Source: Acetobacter okinawensis (lineage in GTDB: Bacteria > Pseudomonadota > Alphaproteobacteria > Acetobacterales > Acetobacteraceae). Taken from it: a DNA stretch of 37,450 nucleotides. The DNA lies in NCBI RefSeq assembly GCF_002153655.1, contig NZ_JOPJ01000005.1, forward strand, positions 1 to 37,450. The letters run 5' to 3'. The stretch's first letter is position 1, and every line of letters starts with the position of its first letter. The position numbers and the translations under genes were made by a program. Of this stretch, positions 14,607 to 37,306 are shown piece after piece. The notes below the pieces were generated by a model. That model saw only the letters and a list, made by a program, of their open reading frames with translations. It searched no databases and was not told the DNA's origin.

Positions 14607-14686
14607 CGGGCAGCGCCAGCCCCACCACAAAACCTTAAAAACCGACTTATTTTTCTTCAGTTTTGTATAAAACAGGGAAAACTTCC

Positions 14687-17410: not shown

Positions 17411-17425
17411 ACAGCCTTCTGCTCC

Positions 17426-17458: not shown

Positions 17459-17504
17459 GCACAGACCCGGCAAGACTGTCACTTACGGGTAAAGGAGCTT
17501 ACAC

Positions 17505-19528: not shown

Positions 19529-20806
19529 ATGCCACCGGCCCCGCAACCCGCGCCTTCCTGCCCGCAAAAACCAACAACCGGCAACCAGAAGGCCTATGTT
19601 GTCGCGTGGTTTTTGTGTCTGGTATTTTACTGGTTGCAATACTCCACCCGCTCCGCCCCCAGCGTTATGGTGGGTGAACTGGTCTCGGCCTTTGGGCTGA
19701 CAACCGTGGGGTTGGGGTCCCTGCTGGGGCTGTATTATTACACCTATTCCCTATGCTCCATTATCTCCGGTGCGGCGGTGGACAGATGGGGGGCCAAATA
19801 CACCATTGCCTTTGGCGCACTGGTGCTGGCCACCGGCACATGCCTGTTTGGCTGGGGGAACGAATGGCTGGCAGCCCTTGGCCGCCTGATGCAGGGCGCA
19901 GGCTCGGCCTTTGCCTTTGTGGGGGCTGTGTACCTGGCCGCACGCGGTTTTTCCAAACAGCATCTGGCCACGGCTGTGGGGGTTACCCAATGCGCTGGCA
20001 TGCTGGGGGGCGCCATGGGCCAGTCAACCGTAGCATGGTTGATTCATGATGTTATAAACTGGCATTTTTTCTGGATTGATACGGGTGGCATGATTGCCAT
20101 TGTCGCCGTTTTTATATTTTTCCTCACTCCGTCCGAGCGCAAGGCGGGTGCCACGAGCACGCACCCCGCGGGCTCCATGTTTGCGCCTTACAGGAGTGTG
20201 CTCTCCAACCCGCAGTCCTATTTGTGCGGCCTGTGTTCGGGCCTGCTGTTCTTGCCCACAACCGTTGGCAGCATGACATGGGGCATCAGCTTTTTAACCC
20301 AGAGCTGGCACATTGGGTACCATGAGGCCGTTATGCGTGCCGCCATGGTGCCGGTTGGCTGGATGGTAGGCTGCCCCGCTCTGGGCTACCTGACTGACCG
20401 CATAGGCCGCCGAAAGCCCGTTCTGCTCGGGGGCATTACGGTTATGGCGCTCAGTGTGGCCGCCATTATTTACCTGCCGGGCAACACCTTCCCGCCCTAT
20501 GTTCTGGCGTTTGTGCTGGGGGTGGCCTCCGGTGCCGCGATGATCCCCTACTCCATTATCAAGGAAGTCAATGCCGATGAGGTAAAGGGGAGCGCCACGG
20601 GGGCCATCAATTTTCTGGTGTTTGTCATGAGCGCCATTGTATCGCCCCTGTTTGCCGCCTTTTTGCAGCATCTGGGCCACGGGCAACCCTTAACGGGGGT
20701 GCAGTTCACACAGGCCTTCAGCTTTGGGCTGGCGGGCATTGTACTGGCCGGGGTGCTAACCCTGTTCCTGCGGGAAACAGGGCCGGGCGGCAAACCCAGT
20801 CGCTAA
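19529..20806 (+). CDS. MFS transporter
   Basis: The 425-residue product has a hydrophobic pattern consistent with 12 membrane helices. The loop between helices 2 and 3 has DRWGAKYTIAFG, and the matching loop in the second half has GYLTDRIGRRKPVLLGG, the MFS signature. The N-terminal ~20 residues are Pro-rich and cytoplasmic. The YWLQYSTRSAPSVM start of helix 1 resembles organic-anion-type MFS porters, but the substrate cannot be read from the sequence. It is probably monocistronic. Confidence 0.88.
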   Translation: MPPAPQPAPSCPQKPTTGNQKAYVVAWFLCLVFYWLQYSTRSAPSVMVGELVSAFGLTTVGLGSLLGLYYYTYSLCSIISGAAVDRWGAKYTIAFGALVLATGTCLFGWGNEWLAALGRLMQGAGSAFAFVGAVYLAARGFSKQHLATAVGVTQCAGMLGGAMGQSTVAWLIHDVINWHFFWIDTGGMIAIVAVFIFFLTPSERKAGATSTHPAGSMFAPYRSVLSNPQSYLCGLCSGLLFLPTTVGSMTWGISFLTQSWHIGYHEAVMRAAMVPVGWMVGCPALGYLTDRIGRRKPVLLGGITVMALSVAAIIYLPGNTFPPYVLAFVLGVASGAAMIPYSIIKEVNADEVKGSATGAINFLVFVMSAIVSPLFAAFLQHLGHGQPLTGVQFTQAFSFGLAGIVLAGVLTLFLRETGPGGKPSR

Positions 20807-20984
20807 ATGTATTATTCCAGTATTTACATATGAAAATTAAATCAATTTCTGGCACAACATCCCGGACTTATACGTCAAACCCCGCCCTGCATTATGAGCA
20901 TAGAGATTTTTCAGCATAAATATGCCATAGGGCGTCCATAACAAAGCGAACTTAGGCATATTAGCCGCCATAAGGAAAAGAACC

Positions 20985-21356
20985 ATGATGCTACGGAATA
21001 TCACCGTAAAAACCGTTTTTCTTTTAAGCATTGCGCTATTTGTCCCGCATCCTGCAAAAGCCGAAAGCAATGTTATTGGGCTTGGCAATTTTCTGTGCGA
21101 GAAATACCTGAAGCTGCTGGACATCAACCCGCGCTCGGATGAAAAATTCATGGCATGGGCTCAAGGGTACATCAGTGGTCTTAGCAATGACCTGATGCAG
21201 AGCAACCCCAACATCAACACCAACGACTTTGTCAGCAACATGACCTATGGGTCGGAAAAAATAAAACAGGCCTGCATAGAAAACCCGGAATCCAAGTTCT
21301 ACACGGCAGTAGAAACGGCTTTTCATGATATTGAAAAACATCAGGGCAACGAATAA
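20985..21356 (+). CDS. Small exported protein of unknown function
   Basis: The 123-residue product has a signal peptide with likely cleavage after PHPAKA. The mature domain of ~97 residues is helical with two Cys (NFLCEKY and IKQACIEN) that could form a disulfide, and a WAQGYISGL segment. This recalls small periplasmic HdeA- or Rap1a-like proteins, but the match is weak and I do not assign a function. An AAGGA ribosome site lies about 8 nt upstream. Two adjacent ATG codons start the frame. It converges on the giant gene. Confidence 0.65.
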   Translation: MMLRNITVKTVFLLSIALFVPHPAKAESNVIGLGNFLCEKYLKLLDINPRSDEKFMAWAQGYISGLSNDLMQSNPNINTNDFVSNMTYGSEKIKQACIENPESKFYTAVETAFHDIEKHQGNE

Positions 21357-21570: not shown

Positions 21571-24500
21571 TTAAAACGCCCTTCTATCCAGCAGTTCACG
21601 CGCAGCCCGGCTGTGGGCCATGCTGCCCATACCGCGCAACTGGCTGCGCAGGGCGGGCTTACCCGCCGTAGGAGTTGGCACAGTGTGGACCGCCACATCC
21701 GGCAGGGGTGCAAACAACAGGGCCGATGCACTGTGTTGCAGGTTATCCATGCTTGCATGAATAGCCCGCGGCGTTTCACTCACATCCACCATCTCTGTCA
21801 GGTTGGTCTTGTGGCCCACCACAACATGAACATCCACCTGAGCCTGATGGCCGAACATGTCATGGCCAACAACCTTCAGGTCCATCGTGCCGCCCAATAT
21901 CTCGTTCGGTGGGGTGCCATTGAACACCCGGCCCACGGAATTGAACGACATCCAGTTAGGCAGCGGGCTGCCATCCGCCATGGAAGCCTGTAGTTCCATC
22001 TGACTTTCGGTGCCGTTGGGCGTGATGAACGCCCCCATTGGCACCTCCATTCCCGATTCCGCATCTGTGCTGACAAAGCGGTACACAGACGACCCCTGCA
22101 CCCATGTTTGATGTGCCGCAGACACGCTACGCTCAAACGGGGACACAAAAACCGTTTCAATCGCGTTTGAGGCAAGGGCCAGCCCGCTGGGGTTCCCACT
22201 TTGCATCACACCTGGCAGAGATGGCAGGCCATGAGGGCGCGCATCCGGTATAAAAGTGTGCAGCATGACCGCTGTATGCGAGAGCGTACCGGTGGGGTCA
22301 TGCATCATGGTGCTGACATCCACCCCCGCGCTCACCAGACCGTTCGCCAGCGGCGAACCGCTTTCAATCAAAGCAGCTCCAAGCCGTCCGGGTATGCCCG
22401 CATAGCCGGACACGGGCAAAAAGCTCAACTGCGTATTGCGTGGCAGCACCAACGCGGATGTGGGAGAAACCGTGGTGGGGTCAAGCTTTGTCCATGTTTT
22501 GCCACCATCGCTGGAATAGACCCAGCTCCCTTGGGTTTTGGGGTTTGCCCCATCGCTGATAATGGCCACCCCAACCAACGTATTGGCAACAGAACCCGTC
22601 GGATTGGTAGCCGAACGCTGCTGGTCCGCCTGATCCGAGAATGTCGGGTCAAACAGTTTGCCAACCGTCTGGTTGTATGGGTGCGCGGGATCTACCTCCC
22701 CGGGCATGACAAGCGCCACCGAGCCAGAGGCAACAGGCGCATCATTAACGGCCGCAATCACTGTGGTGAGCGGCACAGAAGCAACACTCAGGGCTGTGTT
22801 CCCTCCGGTGTGGGACACATCAACCCCGGTCTGCGCTATGCTGCTGGTTGCAAGGTCCGCCCCGGTTACGGATACGCCCTGAGCGTTATGGTACAACGGC
22901 ACATCGGTTGAGCTATCGATCAGCGTTGCGGTCAACCCGCCGGGCTGGCCATTAAAGTTGGCCGCAGGCACAAACGCGATCTGTGTAGAGGCAGATAGCA
23001 CCAGCGCGTTCGTGGTGGACACATTTTGGGGTACATCCACCCAGCTTTTTCCGCCATCGGTCGAGTACTGCCAATGCCCCTGCTCGGGTGTTGCCTGGTC
23101 CGACGTAAGAGCCACCCCGGCCAACGTGTTGGCCACCGAGCCCGTGGGGTTGTTGGCGGAATGCTGCTGATCGGCCACATCGAAGAATGTGGGGCCAAAC
23201 AAGGTGCCAATGGACTGCGCGGGGGCTGTTGTATCTTCCCTACCTGCCAGCGGAGGAAGAGCGCCTGTGGCCACGGGCGCATTGTTGTTGGCCGTCACAT
23301 GCAGGTCCAGCGTTTCCGCCGCACTGGAGTACGCTGCACCAGCGGTGTTGATGCCAGCACCCAACGTGCCGACCGCTGGCAATGCAGACGTGCTCCCGTT
23401 GGCAGCACCATCCGACTGGTCCCACGCCCTGAAGGTAAGGGCGTTGCTGATTGTACCGTTCCAGTTGGACTGGGTGGGCTGGAAATAAATCCGGTTCTGC
23501 CCGGTGGAATCCGCAACCAGATGCAGCGCATTCCCCCCGCCCGGTGGCGTTGTAGCACCGTTACCTGCAAAGGCGGTCCATGTTTTGCCCCCATCTGTGG
23601 TGTACAGCCATGTGCCAATGGAGCGGGTTGTTGTGCCATCGGGCTGGCCTGCGGTTGTCTGGGCATCGGTAATGGCAATGCCCGGCGTACGTCCCTGCCC
23701 CGCGGTTGCCTGTGTCAGGTTTGCTCCATCGGGGTCCGTAACATTACCCGGCCCCCCCGTTGCGGTATTCAGCCCAACCAGATCGGAGACTGCGGTACCC
23801 GCCCCCATGCCCGGATTAACGCGCGTTGCCACATCGCGCTCTGCGGTGCTGAGCGAAACAGGAATGGACGGGTCCAGCACGGGGGAGTTGTCAGCCGCCA
23901 GAACCGTTATGGTGCCATTCGTCAGCACCGGATGGGTTGAATTGTTCTCGTACAGCGCGATCTGAACAGTATGTGCGCCTGCGGTCGGCTCGGCAGAGGT
24001 GTTGTAATAGGTCACCGCTTGGAGCGCCGCCTGCCACTGTGCCAGCGTTGTGGTGCCATCAGACGTTATTTTTAATGTCCCATCCGCACCCGTAGAGGTG
24101 CTCAACCCTTCCCCAGAAGGTATGGCAACCGCGAGCACATCCTCACCAGCCTGCCCGCCCGTAATCTTGATGACGGCCTGCTGGATGGAGGTGGGGCTGG
24201 CCCCGCCGGAGGCATCTTGCAGGCTCAGCCCCGGGTAAACCGCCACGGCGGTAGCGGGCAAAGACTGCGGATTATTCTGCTCCTGATACGATGTGGCAAA
24301 AGATGGAGGAGGAATATCCACCGCCGAGAACAGGGGTACGCTGGTAGCCGTGTTCAGGCCCTGTGGGCCGGACGTGGTGGGGTTGTTATCGCTCAGTGTT
24401 GCCCCAATAATGACCTTGCTTAACCCCGGATCACTGCTGCTGCCTGTGTAGGTATAGGTCAGGCCAGCAATCGTCTGGCCAATAAGGGCGGCGGTAGCAT

Positions 24501-27500
24501 TGGCGGCAAAGGTGATTTGCAGCTTACCGCCCGCCTGAGCCAGCGTGCCAACGGCCTGACCATCGACCAGCACAGTCTGCCCGGACAGAACAACACCGGT
24601 TGCCCCTGTGCCCGAACCTGCAAAACTGTCTTCCACGCTGGCTGCGGGTGCATTGTTCACATAACGCTGCACGGTCAGCACTGTGCCGTTGTAGGAATCC
24701 CCCACCTGCCCTGTCTGGGACTGGGCAATAAGCTTATCAATTTCGGCATCTGCGACCGTCACAGAGCCACTACCCAAAGCAACAGGCTGACCATCGGCAT
24801 TGCCCGTTACGGGGATTGCCTGCCCCCAGCCAACCGTGCCGCCGGATGTCAGGGTTGGGGCTGTATCTGGCACGGCATAGGCCATGTTCACATTGTTGAT
24901 GACCAACCCACCCGTAGCGCTGTAGGTCGCTGCGGCCAGCGGAAGTGTGTCAGATGTGGCGGTGACTGCTCCATATCTGTTGGCAATCAGTGTTTCCTGC
25001 GCAGGCAGGCCTGCTGTCCCGGCAGTGGGTACGCTCACTGTCGCAATGTTTGTGGGGGTGCCATAAACCGCAACCAGTGCGGCGTAGCTGCCATCCGTCG
25101 CGTTTGTTGTGACATTCTGCACAAACGGTGTGCTGCCACTGCTCGGGGTCAGTTGCAGGGTCACCCCAAGCCCGGTGTCCAACCCGGCCTTATACGTGCT
25201 GGGGTCATTCCCCAGATTTTGCCACACATGGCCAGAAACCGCAGCCAGCCCCGTGGTTACACTGGTAGTATAGGTATCCACCCCAACAAGAGCACCAGAC
25301 CCATCGCGGCTCTGAGTGACACCCCCTGTTGTGCTCCCCCCCTGCGTTACTCCCTTGAGCGACAACCATGTGGCGGTTGCAGTGCTTAAGGCCGCACCCT
25401 GAGTTTTGTCCGCCAACGCCACTGTGTAGGTGAACTGCTCGGTCGCACCTTTGGCAAGCGTCATTGTGCCTGTCATTGCGTTGGTGCTCATGGCAGGCGC
25501 GCCGCTGCTGGCCCCCGGTGCCACAATATAGAGGGAGCCGGGCACATAGCTCTCATTCTGTGCGGCCAGAGGGTCTGTGAGCGTTACGCCATAGGCTGTG
25601 GCCGTGCCGATGTTTTTAAGCGTTTCCGTGTAGGTGACAGTACCCGCAGCATAATCAATAGCCGAGACATCCTTGGTGAGCACCACCTTGGGCTCCAGCA
25701 CTGCCTCGCTCACCTGCGCGGTGTTAGAGACATGGCTGCCGGAGCTGACCTGCAATTGCGATGTTATGTTTGTACCGCTGGTATTATCCGCACTGTTGTT
25801 AACAGTCGCCTGCATGTCCACTACGGCATAGACCGGAATAGCCTGCATGGCATTGTCCGCCACCGTGCCGAGATTGATGGTGAGCACACCGGTCGCAGGA
25901 TTATAAAGATAATTGGAGCTGGACAGCCCAACCGTGGCCGCCGTGGTTTTAGCGTCTGCCAGACTGGACATGCTCGCCCGCAGGCCGGGTGTGGACATAT
26001 CCAAGTTGGAGGCCGTGACTGCGTTATCGGGGCTGCCCAGCAACAGCTTGATGCTGCTCTGGTCCAGCGTCATGTTTTTGGGGAGCGTAAAGGTCAGGGT
26101 GACGTTGTCATTCTTCCCCTCCGGCACAGATGCAACACCATGCAGGCTTATAATATCCCCTGGCACCACATGCGCGCTGGACTGCGGGTTGCTCAGGCTG
26201 GGAGTGGCCCCTTCCGTGCCGTTGGACTCACCCACAATCCACAGGTCAGCACCCAGCTTAGCCACGGCCGGGGTGGCATTGCTCGTGCTGAAATTGCCTT
26301 GCATGGGTGTTGTGAGTGCTGAGGTTGTGCTGTTCGGCACGGAGGTATAAGTACCTGAATCAGCCACGCTTACGTTGGATTCTGCTGTAATATTACTGCT
26401 GACAGTGCCCATGACATAATACGTCAGCCTGCTGCCACTGGCCAGCCCGCCTGACTGTACTATGTCCTTTTGCATCTGGCTTAGGTCTGTATATGACTGA
26501 CCATTATAATAATATCGGACATTATCCAGATTTTGCGATGTCGGATGAATCGCAATATCATAAGCTGGCACACTGGATGTGTTGTTGAGCGTGACCTTAT
26601 AGGTCAGTGCCTCCCCACTATAGACAGATTCAGTGTTCGGCAGCGCTGTGGCTGTTGTTGGGTCGGTCGGGGTTGTCGTATTGGTTTTTTCCGCCGTAAT
26701 TGTCTCGCTCAGGCTCGGGTCACGCTCGACCACCGTGTCGCTGGTACTCCCCTGATCCGGGGAGTAATGCAAGGTGGCTGTCAGGTTCCCGGTTTTACCA
26801 TCCCCGCCCATGCTGGCGTAATTGGCAGCGTAGGTGAGCGTAATTGTACCCGCAGAAGCACCAGTGTTGGTCACACTTTTACCGAAGTCAAAGGTCAGCG
26901 TGCCATCACCATTATTCTGCACGCTGGGCGTGGCATCACTGCTAAGACCAGCCCCCGCCAGTGTAATGGTGCCGGAATTGCTGACATAGCTTACACCCGC
27001 AGGCAGGGTCACGGTCACCGTTACATCGTCACCCCCGTTGGTAAGCTTACCCTGCGGCACGGTCACGTTTATGGTTGTGGTGCGCCGCTCGCCTGCCACA
27101 ACGGTATTATCGTTTGTGCTCCCCCCATTGAGCGATGCCGTGGCGTTGGCTGTATCCGTGCCAGATGTGTCGGTCACACCGTTTATGGTTGACCCGCTAA
27201 CAGTCTGCGACAGCGTGGGAGACTGCGTGGTCATGGTCGCGGAATCGCTTATATCCGTGGCCACGCCGCCCAGTGGGACCGCATTGGTTACAAAGTTTGT
27301 GCCATTTGCAGTGTTGGTATAGCTGACCACATTGGCCGAAGCATTCAGGGTCGTATCCAGACTGGTCTCTTTGGGGAGGGTCACATCGTAAGCAATGCTC
27401 AGGCTGGCAACGCGCGTTACGGCACCGCTGGCGTCTTTGGTCTGGGCGGCCAGAACCTCCCCGGTTTTGCCTCCATTAACGCTCACCACGGTGGATAGGT

Positions 27501-30500
27501 CCAACCCGGTGGAGGAAAAATAGGCGCTGGTCTGCTCGGCTGTCAGGGCATAAACGCTGCCATCCGATGTTGTGATTGTCAGATTACTGGCAGGCTGGCT
27601 GCTGCCACCCACAGTTGGCGTGCTGCCTCGCACGACCAGATCATACATGCCGCCATCGCCGGTGTTGGTAACCGTAGTGACCACGCGCACGCTCTCGCCC
27701 CCCTGCACGCCGGTCACATTCAGGTTGTCCTGATCAACCAGCCCTGTCTGGTTCGGGTTCCCCCCCGCAGTAAAAATACTGCCGGTGCTGTTGGCATCGG
27801 CATAGTTTGTGGGTTTACCCGCACTGCCTGAGCCATCCACACTATAAGACACATCCGTGGCAGCAGCGTTACTGCTGTTGACCACCGAGACAATGCCGGT
27901 TTTAAGCTCCGCCTGTGGTGAGCCCACCTGCTCTTGCAAAATAACCGATGTTGCCTGCGTGGTGCCCTGACCATTGGTGAAGGTGGACTGCTCCTGATTG
28001 GTCATGAGCAGGCCGTTAGCAAACGGCGCATTGGTCGCCCGCACCGTGAACAGCAAAGAGACAGTCTTGGCGGTAGCCTCGGATACGTGGCTGCTGTCCG
28101 CGAGCTGGAAATCCACATCATTGAGCTGCGCGCTGGACGTCACCCGGTCAATACTCACCGTGGTGGGGGACGTGCTGGACAGCAGATACGTGCCTGCGTT
28201 AGCGCCACTGATATAGCTGCTATCCGGCTGCGCCTGTGCCACCTGATAGGTCGAACTGCCCGAGGCATTGGGGTCGCCTGTGGTGAACAAGGGCTCCGGC
28301 AGGTAAGAGGCCAGATCAAGCCCGTTAAACGTGCCGGTTTGCAGGGTATATGTCGCCTTGTACGTTACAAGGTCCCCCGCCTTGATGGGGGGAATAGCCT
28401 CACCGTCCTTAATCTCCACATTGTTCACACCCACCACGCTCAGGGTTGTCTTGCCCTGTGGCACAGAAAGGCTGGTGTGGGACGTGTCTGTCGCGGTTTC
28501 TGCCGTTGTGCCATTTACCAACACGGGTTGTGGCGTAGTGCCGGTGCCCAGCAGGTTTACTTTTGCAAAAACATCGGACGTCAGCGTATCCGCCTCGGTC
28601 ACCGGATTGGCATTGACGTATTGTGGGTTAACCGTGGTGTAATAAACCAGCTGTCCACTGCCACCTGCAAGCATAAGAGCCGCCTTCAGGTCCTTGTCTG
28701 CAATGTTCAGGGTCATGGTGGTCGTGGTCTTGCCCGTGGCATCGGTAGACGTGGCCCAGATAAAATCCGGGTTGGTTGTGGCCTTGCCATCGGCATTGGT
28801 GCCCAGCTCAACCGTCTGCTGCACCCCCTTTGAATCCTTATAGGTAAAGACGGGTGTCATGGTGGTGGTGTTCAGCGTCTGCCCATCGCTGAGCGTGGCT
28901 GTAATGACCAGCCCACTGGAGCCATAATAATCCGAGTTCTCAACCAGAACGGTGTGTTTGATCACATCATTCGGCAATGCTGCGCCCGTACTATTCAGGC
29001 TGGTGTTGGTCACATCCTCCACTTTTTCCTGAATAGCAAAGGCCTTGGCGTCAAAACTGGTATTGCCCGAGCTGGTGCCAGACCCACTGACCGCAACCGG
29101 GGCCGCATGGTCGAGCGAGCCAACGGGAGCCGTCCAGTTATTGGCGCTGTAGCTGAACTTTAACGCATCCGTTTGTGTAGGTGCTACATTCCCGCTGCTC
29201 GCATCGGGCTGGAGAATACTATTGCCCGCAGCATCCGTAGACCCAACATAGGCCGGAATATCCAGCGTAACAGCACCCGTGGTGCTGGAAAGGCTCGTCG
29301 GCAGGGTTAAGGTCAGGGAGCCACCCGGCTGACCCGCAGTAACATGGGAGGCACTTGGCGTTAACGTCTGGGAGTTGCCCGCCGCATCAGTGTAGGTTAT
29401 CTGCCCACCCGTGTAGATTACCTGATCTGGCAGCGTGACGGTCACGGTGGTGCCCGTAATTGCCGCACCAGCCGTGACAGGAGCCGGGTTGAGGGTAATC
29501 TGGTAATGCTCAGGATACCCCGGGCCTGTCGGGCTTTCATCCTCGCCCACGCTGGTCTGGACCTGAGAGGTCACGTCAAGCAGGTTAATCGAGACCTGAC
29601 GCGTGGCGTCATCCCCCTGCACAGGGGCGGAACCACCGGTTACAGCCGAGTTCCCCAGCGCATACCCCCCCGCCACACCCAGAATGACGTTTTTGCCACT
29701 GGTGCTGCTTAACTGGCTGATGTGGGAAGAATCGCTCGCTTCCGTGCCAAAGGTCGCCACCATATTAATGGTGGGCTGCCCGGAGGTGTAGCTCCCAAAC
29801 GGCAGGCTGGCGGCGTACATGGTATCGCCCGCCTTGAGCCCGGTGGGTGCCGCAGCCCATATGCCCTTGTAATACGCCCCAACCTGACCGGGGTGGCTCG
29901 CATCATCCCCCACCAGTGTAATGGCCTGTGTGGTCAGGGTCTGGATTGTGTTGCCGCTGCTATCCACCATAACAAGCGATTGCAGGGGCGTGCTCTGCTG
30001 GTCATTGCTGGGGGTAAAAATTTCCACATATGGGGAATAGCCAGTCGCACCACCGGTGTTTTTGAACTGTATCGTCTCCTTAAAAGACCCGCCCAGCAAT
30101 GCAACATCGGTTTGGTCCGCACTACCCGTAAAGCTGACATCCGCCGTTGGGTTGGTGTCCAGCACATAATCGTACCCCGCCATGGCCGCGGCCGAGAACG
30201 GGTTCTCCACAGCGCTGGAGGTCATGCCTGCCGTCTGCTCGAGCGTCCAGTCCCCACCAAGCTGGGCCATGCCGGTCTTGTCGGTCGATGCGCCTATGTC
30301 CGCACCCGTCAGGGTGTGCAGGTCATCCACCAGAGCCTTGCCATCCACCCCTTGCCCGACATCACACCCCCAGAACAGAATCTGCCCGCCAGAGGCGAGT
30401 GAATCGCCCCAGCCGGTCACCTGTGCGCTGCTGGCCATAACAGTTGCCGCGTTAATGGTACTGTTGCCCAGCGTTACTTCGCCCGACTGCCCATAGGTTA

Positions 30501-30858
30501 GAAAATTGACTGATTGCAACTCATGCTGTTCAGACAAAACCTGAGAGACAAGGGCCATGCCGTCCCGGTCGGGGGAGACCACAACAACCCCGACCGTATC
30601 CGGCAGGGAGGCGGTCAGGGCTTGCCAGTCCGCCACGCGGGAATCAACAAAAACAACAGATGTCAGCGAATCTGACTTTGTGGTCGCATTATGCCCCTGT
30701 GCGTTTGCGGCCAGCGGCGTGTCCACAGCCGTATTCGTAACAGCGGCAACGGTCGTGCTCTCATGCTCGGCGCCCGGCTCATGGTTGTGGTCATGATGAT
30801 GGGCCGTATGAGCAACGCTTCCGTCAAAAAGATAACGCTGTTCAAGAATAAGGCGCAT
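21571..30858 (-). CDS. Giant repetitive secreted/surface protein with DUF4347 domain
   Basis: The product has about 3,095 residues from the ATG at 30858 (GGAG ribosome site about 10 nt upstream); an in-frame start 57 nt further out would bury the N-terminal motif. In order: LEQRYLFDGS at residues 5-14 (resembles the LEPR-XLL-type motif of giant secreted proteins), a His-rich stretch at ~18-33, DUF4347 at ~66-215 with its hallmark FWGCDVGQG, then over 2,000 residues of Ser/Thr/Gly/Asn-rich beta modules resembling DUF11/Ig repeats, two ~86-residue copies near 2550 and 2732, and a cadherin-like (CADG/He_PIG) domain at ~2917-3020 with LPNWMSFN and FNGTPPN. The C-terminus is basic. There is no Sec signal peptide. 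It is probably an adhesin or matrix protein. Confidence 0.88.
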   Translation of the reverse strand: MRLILEQRYLFDGSVAHTAHHHDHNHEPGAEHESTTVAAVTNTAVDTPLAANAQGHNATTKSDSLTSVVFVDSRVADWQALTASLPDTVGVVVVSPDRDGMALVSQVLSEQHELQSVNFLTYGQSGEVTLGNSTINAATVMASSAQVTGWGDSLASGGQILFWGCDVGQGVDGKALVDDLHTLTGADIGASTDKTGMAQLGGDWTLEQTAGMTSSAVENPFSAAAMAGYDYVLDTNPTADVSFTGSADQTDVALLGGSFKETIQFKNTGGATGYSPYVEIFTPSNDQQSTPLQSLVMVDSSGNTIQTLTTQAITLVGDDASHPGQVGAYYKGIWAAAPTGLKAGDTMYAASLPFGSYTSGQPTINMVATFGTEASDSSHISQLSSTSGKNVILGVAGGYALGNSAVTGGSAPVQGDDATRQVSINLLDVTSQVQTSVGEDESPTGPGYPEHYQITLNPAPVTAGAAITGTTVTVTLPDQVIYTGGQITYTDAAGNSQTLTPSASHVTAGQPGGSLTLTLPTSLSSTTGAVTLDIPAYVGSTDAAGNSILQPDASSGNVAPTQTDALKFSYSANNWTAPVGSLDHAAPVAVSGSGTSSGNTSFDAKAFAIQEKVEDVTNTSLNSTGAALPNDVIKHTVLVENSDYYGSSGLVITATLSDGQTLNTTTMTPVFTYKDSKGVQQTVELGTNADGKATTNPDFIWATSTDATGKTTTTMTLNIADKDLKAALMLAGGSGQLVYYTTVNPQYVNANPVTEADTLTSDVFAKVNLLGTGTTPQPVLVNGTTAETATDTSHTSLSVPQGKTTLSVVGVNNVEIKDGEAIPPIKAGDLVTYKATYTLQTGTFNGLDLASYLPEPLFTTGDPNASGSSTYQVAQAQPDSSYISGANAGTYLLSSTSPTTVSIDRVTSSAQLNDVDFQLADSSHVSEATAKTVSLLFTVRATNAPFANGLLMTNQEQSTFTNGQGTTQATSVILQEQVGSPQAELKTGIVSVVNSSNAAATDVSYSVDGSGSAGKPTNYADANSTGSIFTAGGNPNQTGLVDQDNLNVTGVQGGESVRVVTTVTNTGDGGMYDLVVRGSTPTVGGSSQPASNLTITTSDGSVYALTAEQTSAYFSSTGLDLSTVVSVNGGKTGEVLAAQTKDASGAVTRVASLSIAYDVTLPKETSLDTTLNASANVVSYTNTANGTNFVTNAVPLGGVATDISDSATMTTQSPTLSQTVSGSTINGVTDTSGTDTANATASLNGGSTNDNTVVAGERRTTTINVTVPQGKLTNGGDDVTVTVTLPAGVSYVSNSGTITLAGAGLSSDATPSVQNNGDGTLTFDFGKSVTNTGASAGTITLTYAANYASMGGDGKTGNLTATLHYSPDQGSTSDTVVERDPSLSETITAEKTNTTTPTDPTTATALPNTESVYSGEALTYKVTLNNTSSVPAYDIAIHPTSQNLDNVRYYYNGQSYTDLSQMQKDIVQSGGLASGSRLTYYVMGTVSSNITAESNVSVADSGTYTSVPNSTTSALTTPMQGNFSTSNATPAVAKLGADLWIVGESNGTEGATPSLSNPQSSAHVVPGDIISLHGVASVPEGKNDNVTLTFTLPKNMTLDQSSIKLLLGSPDNAVTASNLDMSTPGLRASMSSLADAKTTAATVGLSSSNYLYNPATGVLTINLGTVADNAMQAIPVYAVVDMQATVNNSADNTSGTNITSQLQVSSGSHVSNTAQVSEAVLEPKVVLTKDVSAIDYAAGTVTYTETLKNIGTATAYGVTLTDPLAAQNESYVPGSLYIVAPGASSGAPAMSTNAMTGTMTLAKGATEQFTYTVALADKTQGAALSTATATWLSLKGVTQGGSTTGGVTQSRDGSGALVGVDTYTTSVTTGLAAVSGHVWQNLGNDPSTYKAGLDTGLGVTLQLTPSSGSTPFVQNVTTNATDGSYAALVAVYGTPTNIATVSVPTAGTAGLPAQETLIANRYGAVTATSDTLPLAAATYSATGGLVINNVNMAYAVPDTAPTLTSGGTVGWGQAIPVTGNADGQPVALGSGSVTVADAEIDKLIAQSQTGQVGDSYNGTVLTVQRYVNNAPAASVEDSFAGSGTGATGVVLSGQTVLVDGQAVGTLAQAGGKLQITFAANATAALIGQTIAGLTYTYTGSSSDPGLSKVIIGATLSDNNPTTSGPQGLNTATSVPLFSAVDIPPPSFATSYQEQNNPQSLPATAVAVYPGLSLQDASGGASPTSIQQAVIKITGGQAGEDVLAVAIPSGEGLSTSTGADGTLKITSDGTTTLAQWQAALQAVTYYNTSAEPTAGAHTVQIALYENNSTHPVLTNGTITVLAADNSPVLDPSIPVSLSTAERDVATRVNPGMGAGTAVSDLVGLNTATGGPGNVTDPDGANLTQATAGQGRTPGIAITDAQTTAGQPDGTTTRSIGTWLYTTDGGKTWTAFAGNGATTPPGGGNALHLVADSTGQNRIYFQPTQSNWNGTISNALTFRAWDQSDGAANGSTSALPAVGTLGAGINTAGAAYSSAAETLDLHVTANNNAPVATGALPPLAGREDTTAPAQSIGTLFGPTFFDVADQQHSANNPTGSVANTLAGVALTSDQATPEQGHWQYSTDGGKSWVDVPQNVSTTNALVLSASTQIAFVPAANFNGQPGGLTATLIDSSTDVPLYHNAQGVSVTGADLATSSIAQTGVDVSHTGGNTALSVASVPLTTVIAAVNDAPVASGSVALVMPGEVDPAHPYNQTVGKLFDPTFSDQADQQRSATNPTGSVANTLVGVAIISDGANPKTQGSWVYSSDGGKTWTKLDPTTVSPTSALVLPRNTQLSFLPVSGYAGIPGRLGAALIESGSPLANGLVSAGVDVSTMMHDPTGTLSHTAVMLHTFIPDARPHGLPSLPGVMQSGNPSGLALASNAIETVFVSPFERSVSAAHQTWVQGSSVYRFVSTDAESGMEVPMGAFITPNGTESQMELQASMADGSPLPNWMSFNSVGRVFNGTPPNEILGGTMDLKVVGHDMFGHQAQVDVHVVVGHKTNLTEMVDVSETPRAIHASMDNLQHSASALLFAPLPDVAVHTVPTPTAGKPALRSQLRGMGSMAHSRAARELLDRRAF
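22410..23211 (-). repeat. Duplicated ~86-codon module in the giant gene
   Basis: Copies at about 22956-23211 and 22410-22665 lie 546 bp apart and share DPTF/GPTF, ADQQ, NPTGSVANTL, GVA and YSxDGGKxW blocks in the protein. The DNA is clearly related but has diverged, so this is an old duplication within the gene. Confidence 0.8.
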
Positions 30859-31165
30859 TTTAACCACTCTCCAAAACACAAGACATAACCGGGGCAGATT
30901 TAAACAAAACAGCACTAAACCAATTGGCTATTTTTCATTTTTCGTATGAATTTATACTGTCAAAGCGAAAAATTGTTCTGCAACAATTATTTAATTTAAC
31001 CTAACAAAAATAAAGTTAGATTAATTATGACATTGACGCAATGGTTAGAAGTGGGGCAATACTCCGGCCCCTTGCCTTTGCCCACATTGCATCTGTGCCG
31101 CGCAGGCTGTGCCCTGCCGCAATAAAATTGAACAGTTTTTAATAAAGAGCGGTTTTATTTCTAAA
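30859..31165. promoter_or_regulatory. AT-rich divergent control region with 18-bp palindrome
   Basis: The 307-bp gap between the giant gene and the divergent TolC-type gene is far richer in A/T than the coding DNA. It contains the near-central palindrome AATTGTT-ctgc-AACAATT (30971-30988). A TATACT (30953-30958, plus strand) is a candidate -10 element, and TTGACA on the minus strand (30963-30958) a candidate -35, but neither has a good partner at normal spacing. A shared regulator controlling both sides is plausible. Confidence 0.6.
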
Positions 31166-32794
31166 ATGAGCAGACACAGTCTTTCGCACGCCCGACCCAG
31201 CCTTGCTCTCTCCTCCATGGCGGTTGGGCTGCTTTTACTGACATCCGCCTGTGGCGTGCGCCCCAAACCGCTGACACTGCACGACCATATTGCCCGTGCC
31301 GATGCAGATCGCGCAGCGGTGGAGGCGCATTATGTGCCACTTAAGGGCGACCTGACCCTTGGCACCGCAATCGCGCGTGCGCTCAAGTTCAATTACGATG
31401 CACAGGTCGCCAAGCTTGAGATCAACCAGCAGGAAAAGCAGGTTGATCTGTCTCTTATGCAGATGTTGCCCCATCTGGCCGCCGATGCAGGCTACACGCA
31501 GCGCAGCAACAACAATGCGGCGGAAAGCATAGATTGGTTTAGCAACCAGCGATCGCTCGATTACTCCTACTCCGAGCAGAAAGCCCACGGCGCAGGCGAC
31601 ATCAGCTTTTCATGGAACGTGATGGACGCCGGGATCAGCTATTTTTCCGCACGTCAGCAGTCCTACCGCGCTCTTGTTGCTGTTGAGCGACGGCGGCGCG
31701 CCATTAATGATCTGGTCAAGGCGGTTACCACCACCTACTGGGAGGCCGCAGCCGGGCAGGTCATGCTGCCCCGTCTGGAGCCGATTATCAAATCGGCGGA
31801 GACCATGCTGGCCGCCTCGCATAGTGCTGCGACGGACCACCTGCAATCGCCCCTGCTGCTTCTGGACTACCAGCAGAATATTATCCAGATTCTGGGGGAT
31901 TTACGCCGCATCCGCGATGAGCTGGTGGGCGCTCGTATCCAGCTTGCCTCGTTTATTGATGTTCCGCAGGACATGCCCCTGCACCTGACCACCCTGCCAC
32001 AGGCCGTGCAGCCCGTTGCCGAGCTGGACACACCAGCCCTTGAGCGTATGGGCCTGATTATGCGGCCTGAACTCCGCATGGAAGTCTACCAGCAAAAAAT
32101 TGCCCGGCAGGATGTGTACAAAGAAATCCTGAAAATGATGCCGGGTATTGGCGCCATCGGTAACGGTAACTTTGATTCCAACGCCCTGCTGTACCACAAC
32201 ATCTGGGGGCAGATTGGTGTGCGTGGCACCATCAACCTGATCAACCTTATTCAGGGCCCGCAGGCAATCTCGGTTGCCAAAAGTGGTGTGCAGATTTCGG
32301 AAATTCGCCGTATGGCACTCAGTGTTGCCGTGTTGACACAGGTTAACCTGAGCATACAAAAATACCGCACATCGCTCGATGGGCTGCAAACTGCGCGTGA
32401 GATCAACACCGTCAGTCTGGATATGGAACGTCTGGCCAATGTGGCTGCAACTGCAGGCGCACAGTCCGAAGGGGACCGGGTGCGCCACCAGATGGCCGCT
32501 CTACTGGGGCAGTTGTCCTATAGCCGCGCTCTGGCACAGACCCATCAGGCTCTTGCCAATATCTACGCATCAATCGGGGTGGACCTTGTGCCCGCCACGG
32601 CCGATATTCAGGACCTTGACCACCTGACAGCACAGGTTGAACACTCCATAGCGGGGTGGCAGGCAGGCAAACTGCCCGATGTCAGCATAACAGACAATAC
32701 GGGCGGAACAGGCACTACTCCCGCACCTGCGCCCACCACCGCGGACAAACCTGTGGCAATGGACCAGACACCAACGTCCTCCATACCCGGCTGA
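31166..32794 (+). CDS. TolC-family outer-membrane efflux lipoprotein
   Basis: Trimeric outer-membrane channel for type I secretion or efflux. The 542-residue product starts at ATG 31166; a GTG at 31109 is in frame but would precede the signal peptide by 19 residues. The signal peptide ends in LLTSACG, suggesting an OprM-like lipid anchor although Thr at -3 is not canonical. Two OEP repeats follow, with coiled-coil segments such as ALKFNYDAQVAKLEINQQEKQ and LNLSIQKY-like helices. The last ~40 residues are Pro/Thr-rich. It is the first gene of the group divergent from the giant gene and is probably its exit channel. Confidence 0.85.
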   Translation: MSRHSLSHARPSLALSSMAVGLLLLTSACGVRPKPLTLHDHIARADADRAAVEAHYVPLKGDLTLGTAIARALKFNYDAQVAKLEINQQEKQVDLSLMQMLPHLAADAGYTQRSNNNAAESIDWFSNQRSLDYSYSEQKAHGAGDISFSWNVMDAGISYFSARQQSYRALVAVERRRRAINDLVKAVTTTYWEAAAGQVMLPRLEPIIKSAETMLAASHSAATDHLQSPLLLLDYQQNIIQILGDLRRIRDELVGARIQLASFIDVPQDMPLHLTTLPQAVQPVAELDTPALERMGLIMRPELRMEVYQQKIARQDVYKEILKMMPGIGAIGNGNFDSNALLYHNIWGQIGVRGTINLINLIQGPQAISVAKSGVQISEIRRMALSVAVLTQVNLSIQKYRTSLDGLQTAREINTVSLDMERLANVAATAGAQSEGDRVRHQMAALLGQLSYSRALAQTHQALANIYASIGVDLVPATADIQDLDHLTAQVEHSIAGWQAGKLPDVSITDNTGGTGTTPAPAPTTADKPVAMDQTPTSSIPG

Positions 32795-32804
32795 ACACGT
32801 CCTC

Positions 32805-32843
32805 ACCGCTCGAACGGGGGCATCCTCCCGTTCGAGCGGTTTT
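32805..32843 (+). terminator. Strong hairpin between tolC-type and hlyD-type genes
   Basis: A perfect 14-bp stem (left arm 32805-32818, right arm 32827-32840; ACCGCTCGAACGGG) can be extended by a G.U and a G-C pair to a 4-nt loop, and is followed by a run of four T. It lies 10 nt after the TolC-type gene. It should reduce or stop transcription into the adaptor genes, or protect the upstream mRNA end. Confidence 0.8.
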
Positions 32844-32875
32844 AAACCCTATCACCCCAACCGTTTTTCTCTTGG

Positions 32876-33811
32876 TTGTTCAGAAAAACAGTTTGTTTTA
32901 CCTCAGTGTCTGGAATTCAGGTGGCTCTATATTCCTTTACCCCCATCCTTGCTGCGTCACTCCTTTCTGGCTTTATCCTGTCCACAGCACAGGCGGCACA
33001 GACAGGGCATGACCTGCCAGTCAGTCAAATTCAGGCTGCCCCAACTCCAGTTCCCTCCCTCACCCCGGCACAAGACCCGGGTGTGGCTCAACCGCTGGCG
33101 CAGGCACTCCCCGCACCCATGCAGGCTTTGGCGCCCACCGCACCCGGCACGCCAGAGGACCGCCCCGCAGTCCAGATTACCGCGCCCACAAACACCCAGA
33201 TTAGTGCTGGCATGGCGGGACAACTGGTGGCGTTTCCTTTGCAGGATGGGGACAGGTTCAAGGCTGGGGATGTGCTGGCCCGCTTTCAGTGTTCACAGCA
33301 GGAAGCCACTCTTGCCCACGCCAGAGCGGAATATGTCAAACATCGGGGGCTGCTGGATGTGCAGACCCGCATGAAGGCACTTGGGCAATGGAGTGTGTCT
33401 GACCTGCATACCGCCGAGGCAGACCTGCAAGCCGCCAATGCCGACCTTAAAATGGCCTTGGCAGTGGTCGCGCAATGCACGATTGAGGCGCCCTTTAGTG
33501 GCCGTGTTTCCAACTTGATGGTGCATGACTACCAGTATCTCTCCCCCGGCACGCCAATGCTGGAAATTCTTGATGATTCAGCGCTCGAATTATCCATGCT
33601 CGTATCTTCCACAGCATTGCGCCACCTCCAGCCCGGAGCGACCTTTCAGGTCTGGATTCATGAAACAGATCGCACTTACGCGGCGCGTGTCACCCGCATT
33701 TCGGGCAAAGTGGACCCGGTCAGCAAAACCGTAAAAATTTACGCACAACTTGTACAGCCCGTCTCCGATCTGCTGCCCGGCATGACTGGCAGCGCTATTT
33801 TGAAAGATTAG
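32876..33811 (+). CDS. Periplasmic adaptor (HlyD/RND-type membrane fusion protein)
   Basis: Bridges an inner-membrane component and a TolC-type channel. The product has 311 residues if started at TTG 32876; a GTG at 32921 with GGA 6 nt upstream gives 296 residues and is equally possible. Both place a signal peptide ending ...STAQA before the mature protein. A Pro-rich linker precedes the lipoyl/barrel-sandwich halves (ISAGMAGQLVAFPLQDGDRFKAGDVLARF and CTIEAPFSGRVSNLMVHDYQYLSPGTPMLEI), which flank a short helical hairpin. A beta-barrel domain follows. It lies 82 bp before the next adaptor gene. Confidence 0.85.
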   Translation: MFRKTVCFTSVSGIQVALYSFTPILAASLLSGFILSTAQAAQTGHDLPVSQIQAAPTPVPSLTPAQDPGVAQPLAQALPAPMQALAPTAPGTPEDRPAVQITAPTNTQISAGMAGQLVAFPLQDGDRFKAGDVLARFQCSQQEATLAHARAEYVKHRGLLDVQTRMKALGQWSVSDLHTAEADLQAANADLKMALAVVAQCTIEAPFSGRVSNLMVHDYQYLSPGTPMLEILDDSALELSMLVSSTALRHLQPGATFQVWIHETDRTYAARVTRISGKVDPVSKTVKIYAQLVQPVSDLLPGMTGSAILKD

Positions 33812-33893
33812 AAGGCTGAACACCCCCCCTCCTACCGGACGCGACAACACGGCGCAGGATATTCGTCAGGCCGACCTGCTCCGGCTGTCTGGC

Positions 33894-35165
33894 GTGCTGG
33901 AATTATGCGCAAGACTTGGCGCATGCCCCGCTGATGAGCTGGATTTTGTTCTGCTCAATGAAAGTGCTGCACTGGTGCGTTACAGCCAGATGGCGCTCTA
34001 CGAAAGTGCGGCAGGGCGCATAAAAGGCGTGTCTGGCGTTGCCGTTTTTGAATCCTCCGCCCCTTATGTCCGTTGGTTGGATGCCGTTTTCAAACACGTG
34101 GGAGATGCCCCAAACACCCCGCGTCCGCTCTCCCCCGCAGATCTGCCCGATGCCCTTGCCCGGCAATGGCCGCAATGGCTGGCAGCCTTTGCCATTATAT
34201 TACCCCTCACCTGCCGCCATAGCCGCATGGGGCTGGCCCTTGTCGCGCGGGAAGAGGCGTGGACAGCAGCGGAAGTGCGCCTTCTGGGCATTCTTTGCAA
34301 CACCTACACGCAGGCTCAGGTTCTGGCCACAATGCCCCGGCTACCTGCTCACCCCCACCGCACACGCCGGGGCTGGATGGTGGGGGCCGGGGTGTTTTTG
34401 CTGGCTGTCGCACTTTTCCCCGTTCATTCGTGGGTTCTTGCGCCTGCCGAGGTTGTTGCCGTGGACCCGGCCTATGTCCGCGCGCCCTTTGCGGGCATTG
34501 TGCGCCAGATTAACGTCCCGCCCAATGGAGCCGTTAGCGCAGGCACAAGCGTTGTCGAGCTTGAGCGGGGCGAACTGGAAAGCCAATATCAGGTTGCCAA
34601 CAAGGCATGGCAGGTCGCTCGCACGGAATATGACGAGGCCGTGCAGGCCGGGATTTCCGACCCCAAGGCCCGCGCACAGGCTGCACAGTTACGCGGACGG
34701 ATTGACGAGCAGGTCGCCCAGATGCGCTATCAGGCCGAGCAGTTGCAAAAAACCTCCATTCCCACGCCCATATCCGGCCTTGCACTCTATAATGACCCGT
34801 CAGAATGGGTCGGCCGCCCGGTCGAGGCGGGAGAGCGTATTCTCATGGTCGCTCCAGAGCTCTCCCACCGGATTGAAATTCGCCTGCCTGTGACCGAAAT
34901 CGGTCATTTTGAAATCGGCTCCGCAGTGCGGTTTTTTGATAACGTACACCCCGACCACCCCGTGGATGGGCACCTTATTTTTGCCTCCTACGGCTCCAGC
35001 CTGACCTCCACCGGTACACTGGCCTACACCCTGCGCGCTGATATGGAACGAGATATGCGGATGGGCCTTAAAGGCACCGCACGCATTTATGGGCCACGCC
35101 ACATGCTGCTCACATGGGCTTTGCGTAAACCTCTTAGCGTTCTGCGACAGTGGCTTTCGTTCTGA
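33894..35165 (+). CDS. GAF-like/HlyD fusion adaptor, membrane anchored
   Basis: The product has 423 residues from GTG 33894. Residues ~1-145 resemble a GAF-type domain (FVLLNESAALVRYSQMALYE, then RMGLALVARE), predicted cytoplasmic. One membrane helix (161-178, WMVGAGVFLLAVALF) leads to HlyD-type periplasmic domains: barrel-sandwich half YVRAPFAGIVRQINVPPNGAV, a coiled-coil hairpin, and its return IPTPISGLALYND. The frame is open and protein-like upstream to 33804 (ADLLRLSGVLELC belongs to the same helix) but has no ATG, so the true start may be a rare codon further 5'. The stop overlaps the M50 gene. Confidence 0.78.
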   Translation: MLELCARLGACPADELDFVLLNESAALVRYSQMALYESAAGRIKGVSGVAVFESSAPYVRWLDAVFKHVGDAPNTPRPLSPADLPDALARQWPQWLAAFAIILPLTCRHSRMGLALVAREEAWTAAEVRLLGILCNTYTQAQVLATMPRLPAHPHRTRRGWMVGAGVFLLAVALFPVHSWVLAPAEVVAVDPAYVRAPFAGIVRQINVPPNGAVSAGTSVVELERGELESQYQVANKAWQVARTEYDEAVQAGISDPKARAQAAQLRGRIDEQVAQMRYQAEQLQKTSIPTPISGLALYNDPSEWVGRPVEAGERILMVAPELSHRIEIRLPVTEIGHFEIGSAVRFFDNVHPDHPVDGHLIFASYGSSLTSTGTLAYTLRADMERDMRMGLKGTARIYGPRHMLLTWALRKPLSVLRQWLSF

Positions 35166-37306
35166 AACCCGAAGGCACCCCTCCCCCAGCTTCCCCCACG
35201 CCACCGGGCGCGGCCCAACCATGGCCCGCCCTGCGCGATGACCTGGAGCTACTGCGGGGGCCGGTTTTTGCCGGGGCACCCACGTGGACCCTCTATGACC
35301 CGGCCCGGCACCGCTATATCCGCCTGGGCTGGATGGAAATGGAAATTCTCCAGCGCTGGCAACTGGCGGATGCCCCCGCTATTGCCGCAGATATTGCAAC
35401 CAACACCCCCCTGCGGCCAACGGTGCAGGATGTCTTATCCATGCGCACTTTTACCCGTCAGGCGGAGTTGACCACTGCCAGCCATGCGTCCGACAGCGCA
35501 CATCTGGCGGCGCGCGCCAAACCGCCGGGCCTACTCAAATGGACCTTGCACCACTATCTGTTTTTTCGGATACGCCTGTGTAACCCAGACCGTTTTCTCG
35601 GGCAGTGTGCATCGCACATGCACTGGGTGTTTACACGCCGTTTCTGCAAAGTTCTGGTTTTGCTGATTCTTTGTGCGGCCATGCTGATTGCGCAGCAATG
35701 GGCCACATTCAGCCAAGGATTTGCGCGCCTTTTAACCCCTGAAGGCACATTGGGGGTCGCCTGCGCACTGGCACTGAGCAAAGTTATCCACGAGTTCGGC
35801 CATGGGCTTGCCGCCCGCTTTTACGGCTGCCGGGTGCCTGCAATGGGGGTCGCTTTTCTTGTACTCTGGCCCGTGTTGTGGACCGATACAACAGATGCAT
35901 GGCGTTTACGCCGTGCGCGTGAAAGGCTGGTCATAGACTGCGCGGGCATGGGGGCCGAAATTACACTGGCAGCCTGTGCGTCCATTTTGTGGAGTATTCT
36001 GCCTGATGGCGCCCTGCGTGATGCTGTTTTTACACTCAGCAGTTCTACATGGATTCTAACACTTTCCATCAACCTTAGTCCGCTCATGCGCTTTGATGGG
36101 TACTATATTCTCTCTGACCTGCTTGGTATTCCCAACTTACAGGAGCGCGCCTTCGCATGGACACGCTGGCAGACCAGACAATTCCTGTTCGGCACTAACA
36201 CGCCCCCGCCTGAGCCGTTCTCGCGCACGCGCGGGCGCATGCTCCTTGCTTATAGTGCTGCAAGCTGGCTCTACCGGTTTTTCCTGTTCACCGGCATTGC
36301 CCTTGTGGTTTATCACGCCGTGTTCCGAGCGCTGGGCGTATTGCTCATGGGCATAGAGCTTTGGGTGTTTCTGGCCCGCCCCATTTTGGGCGAAGCAGCA
36401 CAATGGCTCAAACAAATGCGCTCCAACCACACACACTGGCGGGCACGCACCACTGCGGGCGTTGTTGTGCTGCTGGGTGTGCTTATGGCGGTGCCATGGA
36501 GCGGGCGGTTACGCGCACCAGCCTTACTCCGCGCCACTCAGCAGGCCGACCTGTACACAAATGGAACTGGCATTGCCACGGAAGTCCCTCATGAGCATAT
36601 GTCTTTCAACAAGGGACAAATTATTCTGGCACTCCGCTCCACGGAACTGGAACATGATGCAGCCGTTGCCGCTGCGCGTCTGGTTGCCCTTAATGCCAGC
36701 CTGTCCGGGAGCGTGTTCGACCCCACACAAACCATGGCGCTCGATGACACGATAGAGCAGATTTCCCGTCAGGCTGCTGAGCAGGGGCGTATTCAAACGG
36801 CCTTATCTTTCCAGCAAATATCTGCTCCTTTTTCTGGTATTCTGGTTGATGTTCCTCCCGACCTTCATATTGGCGACACGCTGCACCACCACGAAAAAAT
36901 CGGCACACTCATCAGCCATACCGGCGCCACCATAGAGGCTTATATTGGCGAACAGGACACGGATCGTTTTAAAGTCGGAGCGGCGGCAATTTTCTATCCC
37001 GACAGGGTGTCTTCTGCGCCGGTATATGCGCGCGTCACAGCGATTTCTGCTGCGTCTTTACCTGAACTGGACGCATCCGAGGTTGCCTCGGTCTATGGTG
37101 GCCACGTTCAGGCGCACAAAATACAGGACGATCGCTTACAACCCGACCGTGCCACATACAGGGTGACCCTTGAGCCAACCACGATAAAGAACGAGCCTGC
37201 ACAACGCAGCACAGGGACAATCAGTATTCAAAGTCGCCCGTTATCCACGCTTGTGCGTATCTATCGTAAAACCATAGCCCTGTTTATGGGAGAAGCTGGT
37301 TTTTAG
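35150..37306 (+). CDS. M50 zinc metalloprotease-HlyD fusion protein
   Basis: The product has 718 residues from a GTG that overlaps the previous gene by 16 bp, so it is translationally coupled. Residues ~28-95 resemble a PqqD-like peptide-binding domain (WTLYDPARHRYIRLGWMEMEILQRW). The multi-helix membrane domain carries the zinc motif HEFGH at 214-218 and the third ligand Asp316 in NLSPLMRFDGYY, both intact, as in site-2-protease family M50. After a further helix near 430-450, residues ~455-718 resemble HlyD-type lipoyl and beta-barrel domains (ISAPFSGILVDVPPDLHIGDTL). It likely acts in the inner membrane in export or processing of the giant protein (inference). Confidence 0.85.
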   Translation: MAFVLKPEGTPPPASPTPPGAAQPWPALRDDLELLRGPVFAGAPTWTLYDPARHRYIRLGWMEMEILQRWQLADAPAIAADIATNTPLRPTVQDVLSMRTFTRQAELTTASHASDSAHLAARAKPPGLLKWTLHHYLFFRIRLCNPDRFLGQCASHMHWVFTRRFCKVLVLLILCAAMLIAQQWATFSQGFARLLTPEGTLGVACALALSKVIHEFGHGLAARFYGCRVPAMGVAFLVLWPVLWTDTTDAWRLRRARERLVIDCAGMGAEITLAACASILWSILPDGALRDAVFTLSSSTWILTLSINLSPLMRFDGYYILSDLLGIPNLQERAFAWTRWQTRQFLFGTNTPPPEPFSRTRGRMLLAYSAASWLYRFFLFTGIALVVYHAVFRALGVLLMGIELWVFLARPILGEAAQWLKQMRSNHTHWRARTTAGVVVLLGVLMAVPWSGRLRAPALLRATQQADLYTNGTGIATEVPHEHMSFNKGQIILALRSTELEHDAAVAAARLVALNASLSGSVFDPTQTMALDDTIEQISRQAAEQGRIQTALSFQQISAPFSGILVDVPPDLHIGDTLHHHEKIGTLISHTGATIEAYIGEQDTDRFKVGAAAIFYPDRVSSAPVYARVTAISAASLPELDASEVASVYGGHVQAHKIQDDRLQPDRATYRVTLEPTTIKNEPAQRSTGTISIQSRPLSTLVRIYRKTIALFMGEAGF

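Follow-up and report, generated by a model that had tools for sequence, protein, structure and literature searches.

The window analysed here, a 37,450-base stretch of Acetobacter okinawensis DNA that is the whole of contig C96 in an assembly of 2.72 Mb and 147 contigs (G000), encodes a giant surface protein beside a cassette of four export genes, and the reading that we favour, with modest confidence, is that they form a dedicated system for the export of giant surface proteins, guided by a short leader and independent of any ATP-binding cassette (ABC) transporter. More tentatively, the system may represent a previously undescribed Gram-negative secretion class, in which a protein (M50-HlyD) that fuses a recognition element of ribosomally synthesized and post-translationally modified peptides (RiPP recognition element, RRE) to an M50 protease and an HlyD adaptor would read a LEPR/LExRxxFD leader, and a SecA-type motor would drive the giant through a TolC-type conduit with no ABC transporter. 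Dedicated secretion or surface display had been suggested in the initial annotation of the window, and it appears to be the best reading of the sequence, since relatives hold no consistent ABC or resistance-nodulation-division (RND) gene and the giant and the export genes are associated across genomes.

The giant is encoded on the reverse strand by an open reading frame (ORF) spanning 21571-30915, which is intact and gives 3,095 residues from the ATG at 30858 (21571..30858), so that the length initially assigned to this LExRxLFDG/DUF4347 protein was borne out. Its N-terminus, MRLILEQRYLFDG, has the identical start position in Gluconacetobacter and Komagataeibacter relatives. The leader motif LEQRYLFDG, a candidate export signal, occupies residues 5-13 (30820..30846, reverse strand); the window's version reads LILEQRYLFDGS, and the family consensus is ALEPRxMFDGAA. 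The DUF4347 domain (PF14252; residues 68-233; 30160..30657, reverse strand) is recognized by Pfam with E 2.8e-46 and 157.7 bits against a gathering cut-off of 24.6, and about 2,860 residues follow it, with one match to a DUF11-type repeat. The initial annotation described the giant as lacking a Sec signal, which agrees with the lack of any strongly hydrophobic stretch in residues 1-80, as judged by hydropathy with no signal-peptide predictor run.

A divergent intergenic region of about 250 bases (30859..31108) separates the giant gene from the export genes, which all lie on the forward strand in the arrangement initially described. A TolC-family outer membrane factor (OMF; 31109..32794; Pfam OEP, E 8e-23) is followed by a periplasmic adaptor of the HlyD/RND_mfp type recognized by Pfam and NCBIfam (32876..33811), both with uncertain start codons, then by a GAF-HlyD type protein (33894..35165) composed of an N-terminal region, a hydrophobic segment at residues 165-183 and an HlyD region, and finally by M50-HlyD (35150..37306), which overlaps the preceding gene by 16 bases. 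In the window copy Pfam finds HlyD alone; the name GAF-HlyD, taken over from the initial annotation, fits the family, because GAF is recognized in 11 of 27 aligned members. HlyD-superfamily matches occur in three of the window proteins, with the type I specific model TIGR01843 below its cut-off; the match of the OMF to the type I specific TIGR01844 is likewise below cut-off. No ATPase domain was found by Pfam or NCBIfam in any of the four export proteins, and Pfam revealed no ABC or RND gene among the window proteins scanned, in line with the absence initially noted up to position 37,306.

The N-terminus of M50-HlyD (residues 24-110; 35219..35479, forward strand) is predicted to adopt an RRE-like fold of a three-stranded sheet and three helices, and the predicted model matches RRE structures with a Foldseek probability of 1.00 and a best E of 0.015. 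The assignment is based on this structural match because Pfam PqqD, rejected as sequence evidence, matched just one member out of 23 (E 0.021). Pfam M50 matched in all 23 M50-HlyD proteins, and both the HExxH motif (HEFGH, residues 214-218; 35789..35803, forward strand) and the distal DG zinc-ligand motif are present; H214, E215, H218, N308, P311, D316 and G317 are invariant in the alignment of these 23. The HlyD/MacA-like region (residues 450-697; 36497..37240, forward strand) shows an adaptor fold in the predicted model.

The closest relatives of the window M50-HlyD are proteins of Acetobacter, Gluconacetobacter and Komagataeibacter, and one scan of genome contigs for M50-HlyD yielded 37 loci, from taxa that include Gluconacetobacter, Komagataeibacter, Novacetimonas, Reyranella, Trinickia, Caballeronia, Paraburkholderia, Rhodopila and uncultured Rhodospirillales. 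Frame breaks aside, the order OMF, HlyD, GAF-HlyD, M50-HlyD is kept wherever the contig is long enough, and the giant ORF is either divergent, in acetic acid bacteria, or upstream and collinear. DUF4347 was present in 23 of the 25 genomes tested for these loci, both misses being loci that start at a contig end. Among 397 Pseudomonadota genomes, DUF4347 occurs in 87 and the M50-HlyD profile (E <= 1e-150) in 69, and the association that the initial annotation expected is pronounced: DUF4347 is found in 64/69 M50-HlyD genomes vs 23/328 others (Fisher 7e-48), and by hand-collapsed genus in 35/37 vs 18/195 (Fisher 9e-26), with kinship handled by this collapse only. Within 249 Acetobacteraceae, 16 of the 17 genomes with a full-length, strong M50-HlyD also hold DUF4347 (the exception is G564). 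DUF4347 is also present in 17 of the 232 others, several by short or weak matches; of two further genomes with a partial M50-HlyD match, G520 holds DUF4347 and G539 does not. The locus is sporadic close to the window genome, since neither M50-HlyD nor DUF4347 occurs in the five further genomes of its genus in this set. At least 45 of 94 strong M50-HlyD matches lie no more than 40 kb from a listed DUF4347, and because linkage within genomes reached only this fraction among the DUF4347 places listed, it was set aside as the only test and a test of the leader motif was added. M50-HlyD copy numbers are lower bounds, the best two or four candidates per genome having been scored; two sister-type loci of G031 and one of G275 (see below) came to light only through SecA. 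Variations on the common layout were also seen: at L138 (G269) the export operon encloses the giant gene, which is flanked by HlyD and GAF-HlyD, and at L145, L158 and L166 the giant gene is placed after M50-HlyD and ahead of the OMF gene, while the giants of L054, L184, L186 and L190 carry a tandem pair of DUF4347 domains behind the leader.

The N-terminal motif LExRxxFD[GA] marks the partner of the cassette better than DUF4347 does. In a scripted search of a hand-made list, the pattern LExRxx[FYL][DE][GA] was found in the first 140 residues of all 57 cassette-adjacent giants with a readable start, and in the first 200 residues of none of 25 DUF4347 proteins from genomes without a window-type M50-HlyD; of 1,796 other ORFs of at least 300 residues in the fetched loci, 16 match, giants on separate contigs among them. 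An automatic count, restricted to ORFs of at least 1,000 residues with a readable start no more than 600 bases from a cassette gene, found the motif in 29 cases out of 40, and each of the 11 misses was judged to be the second piece of a giant split between frames, an antisense frame or a gene unrelated to the giants (that of L140 is a sensor kinase). The list of 57 was drawn up after this count, with added starts from the same contig, and includes closely related loci (eight, for instance, from Gluconacetobacter and Komagataeibacter), giants split between frames (L006, L028, L162), short edge pieces (L136, L163) and giants a few kb off the cassette (L147, L150). Some cassettes also have other large ORFs nearby that lack the motif (2,489 residues in L015; 2,100 in L144). 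Among the 25, the starts of L124, L132, L202 and L211 are uncertain, the genomes of L126 and L134 hold a sister-type M50-HlyD and those of L210 and L211 give a weak family match. Outside both lists stand L204 (G425), which has the leader in a genome where no M50-HlyD was found; L203 and L214, with the leader and an M50-HlyD on other contigs; L140, L152, L153, L155 and L247, with no adjacent giant; giants that run off their contig; and L215, L216 and L218, whose ORF call yielded no DUF4347 frame.

The consensus of 68 distinct leader windows is L-E-P/A/Q/R-R-hydrophobic-M/L-F-D-G/A-A/S, with L, E and R imposed by the search pattern. A slightly looser pattern matched in 46 of 50 fetched DUF4347 loci, some of them away from any cassette (e.g., L040-L043); of the four unmatched, L057 has its start cut off, L063 comes from a genome without M50-HlyD, L088 is of the sister type with the variant LEPRMLFAAD, and L060 is considered further below. 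Four M50-positive, DUF4347-negative genomes (G107, G194, G213 and G269) have a cassette giant with LEPRLLFDG, LEPRLLLDA, LEPRMMFDA or LEQRFVFDG near its start, and DUF4347 was dropped as the defining partner because these genomes still carry a leader giant; the leader is also absent from the DUF4347 proteins of genomes without the window type. A fifth such genome (G082) has two cassettes and a giant beside neither. DUF4347 proteins without a cassette begin in part directly with the domain and in part, judged by eye, with a Sec-like N-terminus (L121, L129, L130, L131, L134). The Sec-like giants L121, L129, L130 and L134 point to a third export route for the domain; L129, L130 and L134 combine the Sec-like start with a hydrophobic C-terminal tail, which we liken to a sorting signal.

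With regard to the energy source, the assembly holds nothing readable past 37,450, and an ABC or RND gene beyond the contig end was judged from relatives, which show no consistent one. When 824 ORFs of at least 100 residues from 70 cassette loci were clustered, the cassette genes and giants emerged as widely recurring families, followed by a group that contains sensor kinases, at 8 loci, and one of ATP-binding proteins, at 6. An ABC exporter is found near one of the 70 loci (L151), beside another HlyD-like ORF, and was caught by Pfam after it had escaped the ABC sequence pattern; the rest of the ATP-binding group are importer-type or membrane-less ABC proteins, and RND-like ORFs occur in three loci (L005, L007, L168).

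The initial annotation called the energy source unclear, and there is now a concrete candidate, a SecA-type motor, based on gene linkage in a sister branch of M50-HlyD and absent from the window cassette. The sister branch is about 21% identical to the window type, with N-terminal domains that align (hhalign probability 85%, E 6.6e-6), and its giants carry leaders such as LEPRFLLSAD, LEERLLLSAD and LEDRILLSAE; the giant with LEPRFLLSAD, the only one scanned, matches the LEPR-XLL model NF012209 (E 3e-8, 32.9 bits). Here a SecA-like protein of 655-762 residues adjoins M50-HlyD, with one SapC gene between them at L177, and in G415 the order is OEP, HlyD, LEPR-XLL giant, HlyD, M50-HlyD, SecA-like. 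In 42 genomes, 11 short SecA paralogues were found, each of them at a sister M50-HlyD locus; the start of the giant was read at four of these loci, and of seven SecA-like proteins checked, six have the Walker A pattern and all have the DEAD motif. No short SecA paralogue was found in 12 M50-negative genomes, in 4 of 12 sister-type genomes, or in 16 of 18 window-type genomes, the other two of which (G031 and G275) also hold sister-type loci; G000, one of the 16, has a single SecA, a 955-residue frame on contig C99. SapC-type genes recur at the SecA-type loci L176, L177 and L198 (Pfam SapC at L176 and L177). In G031 (C1:2687182-2731572; L246, L240), a DUF4347 giant with the leader LEPRFMLSGE forms a 14,920-residue open frame that ends, by coordinates, directly ahead of a set of GAF-HlyD, M50-HlyD and SecA-like genes.

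We propose a mechanism in which the short N-terminal leader of the giant would replace the usual export signal and be bound by the RRE of M50-HlyD, which is taken to be cytoplasmic. The M50 membrane domain would then engage the leader and probably trim or gate it, and the HlyD part, together with the two other HlyD adaptors and the TolC-like channel, would form a conduit to the cell surface. Energy would most likely come from a SecA-type motor, in the sister branch the dedicated short SecA-like ATPase, and for the window type, by inference, from the housekeeping SecA or another source. What the analysis establishes is gene content, conservation, association, motif specificity, the RRE and adaptor folds of the predicted models, the lack of a consistent ABC gene and the SecA-like linkage in the sister branch; that the leader is bound and cleaved and the giant transported, along with topology and energy source, is inferred.

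Several observations weigh against leader-guided, ABC-independent export. The window cassette has no ATPase, and the SecA part is extrapolated from a branch of about 21% identity in which four loci themselves lack SecA. L060 comes from a cassette genome and is a true exception to the motif, and G425, a 480-contig assembly, has the leader with no M50-HlyD match. The hydropathy of the first 80 residues, rejected as a discriminator, does not tell cassette-linked giants from others (the L003 entry being a wrong small ORF). No giant adjoins five M50-HlyD loci, namely L140 (G043), L152, L153, and L155 and L247, the two cassettes of G082, and G564 and, by its partial match, G539 have M50-HlyD with no DUF4347. 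To these add the limited treatment of kinship in the Fisher tests, the exporter at L151, and a full-length ABC protein in G041 that reaches 572 of the 693 bits required for LssB.

One alternative, which has most of its parts in common with leader-guided export, is a two-step variant of Sec secretion, in which the housekeeping SecYEG/SecA would deliver the giant to the periplasm via an unusual signal, M50 would remove or release the leader at the inner membrane, and HlyD/TolC would only take the protein across the outer membrane or hold it at the surface. The SecA-like motors of the sister branch and the intact M50 zinc motif would suit such a route, with which an ATPase-free window cassette is also consistent; however, the N-terminal 80 residues of the window giant contain no strongly hydrophobic stretch, and three adaptors with TolC resemble a through-envelope conduit, so that we regard it as rather unlikely. 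Export through a conventional type I ABC transporter whose gene lies elsewhere, with the cassette as an accessory adaptor set, would be in keeping with L151, with the ABC-type ORFs (Walker A and signature motif) near four cassette-less DUF4347 loci (L122, L124, L125, L126) and with the PrtD or LssB type ABC proteins over cut-off in 8 of 12 cassette genomes tested. The other four, G000, G041, G048 and G107, however, have no PrtD, LssB or HlyB over cut-off (G041 giving the sub-threshold full-length matches), and the ABC-linked DUF4347 proteins lack the leader, which renders this explanation improbable. Equally doubtful is export of a RiPP or other product with the giant as a mere neighbour or receptor, which the RRE and M50 domains, both typical of RiPP pathways, the resemblance of M50-HlyD to NF041824, a model of the daptide protease (E 2.1e-44, below cut-off), and the five loci without an adjacent giant would allow, but no modification-enzyme family recurs around the 70 loci (ORFs below 100 residues, thus small precursors, lay outside the scan) and the leader is found also on DUF4347-less giants and on DUF4347 proteins elsewhere in cassette genomes.

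Leader-guided export would share with type I secretion (HlyB-HlyD-TolC, LapBCE) a TolC-family OMF, HlyD-family adaptors, a giant repeat-rich surface protein and dedicated adjacent genes. The type I secretion signal, however, is C-terminal, whereas the candidate tag is N-terminal, and an RRE-bearing M50-HlyD fusion stands in place of the ABC transporter; the system is excluded from type I secretion because that defining transporter is missing. Unlike in RND tripartite efflux, no RND pump gene accompanies the adaptors among the window proteins scanned. With leader-recognizing RiPP enzymes (the lasso-peptide B1 RRE; the M50 proteases EpeP/YydH and the daptide M50), the system shares an N-terminal RRE fold, as predicted, and an M50 domain with HExxH, but the proposed substrate is a giant protein, and the protease is joined to an HlyD adaptor and has TolC beside it. 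Accessory Sec (SecA2/SecY2) exports serine-rich repeat adhesins in Gram-positives; the likeness, a dedicated SecA paralogue beside a giant surface protein, is confined to the sister branch, whereas the present system is Gram-negative, has M50-HlyD and TolC partners, and lacks a SecA paralogue in the window cassette. The LEPR-XLL domain (NF012209, LEPR-8K) is the same kind of N-terminal motif, and besides the sister giant one of nine window-type relatives exceeds its 17-bit cut-off (20.6 bits) and five give matches below that level, but the window giant falls short of the model, with no match at E 1e-3.

In the excerpts of the literature consulted, EpeP is presumed to cleave a small peptide and to export it (PMC10885120), tripartite systems are described with ABC, RND or major facilitator superfamily (MFS) transporters (PMC8277102), and a paper on a Vibrio genome names LEPR-XLL in a passage that gives no export route (PMC10868602); neither what these excerpts say of DUF4347 in Burkholderia thailandensis (PMC12322963) nor what they say of secretion in Asaia (PMC12502724) bears on mechanism. 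No description of the combination of RRE-M50-HlyD, TolC and leader giant was found in the open-licence literature searched. If correct, the proposal would provide an export pathway for LEPR-XLL-type giants, whose motif has no assigned route in these excerpts, and a TolC/HlyD conduit that operates with no ABC, RND or MFS pump. The RRE, otherwise associated with small peptide natural products, would gain a role in secreting proteins thousands of residues long, and a SecA paralogue would take part in surface display in Gram-negative bacteria. It is directly testable, with one short leader, one binding domain and four genes in cultivable acetic acid bacteria.

Elsewhere in the window, a 670-residue protein (5302-7314) with a BTAD-type transcriptional activator domain and sub-threshold TPR matches is encoded upstream of a leucyl-tRNA synthetase gene, and genes for an Orn/Lys/Arg decarboxylase, an Asp-Al_Ex exchanger, an MFS transporter and an HdeA-like protein stand in a row at 14663-21356, which is likely an acid-stress cluster.

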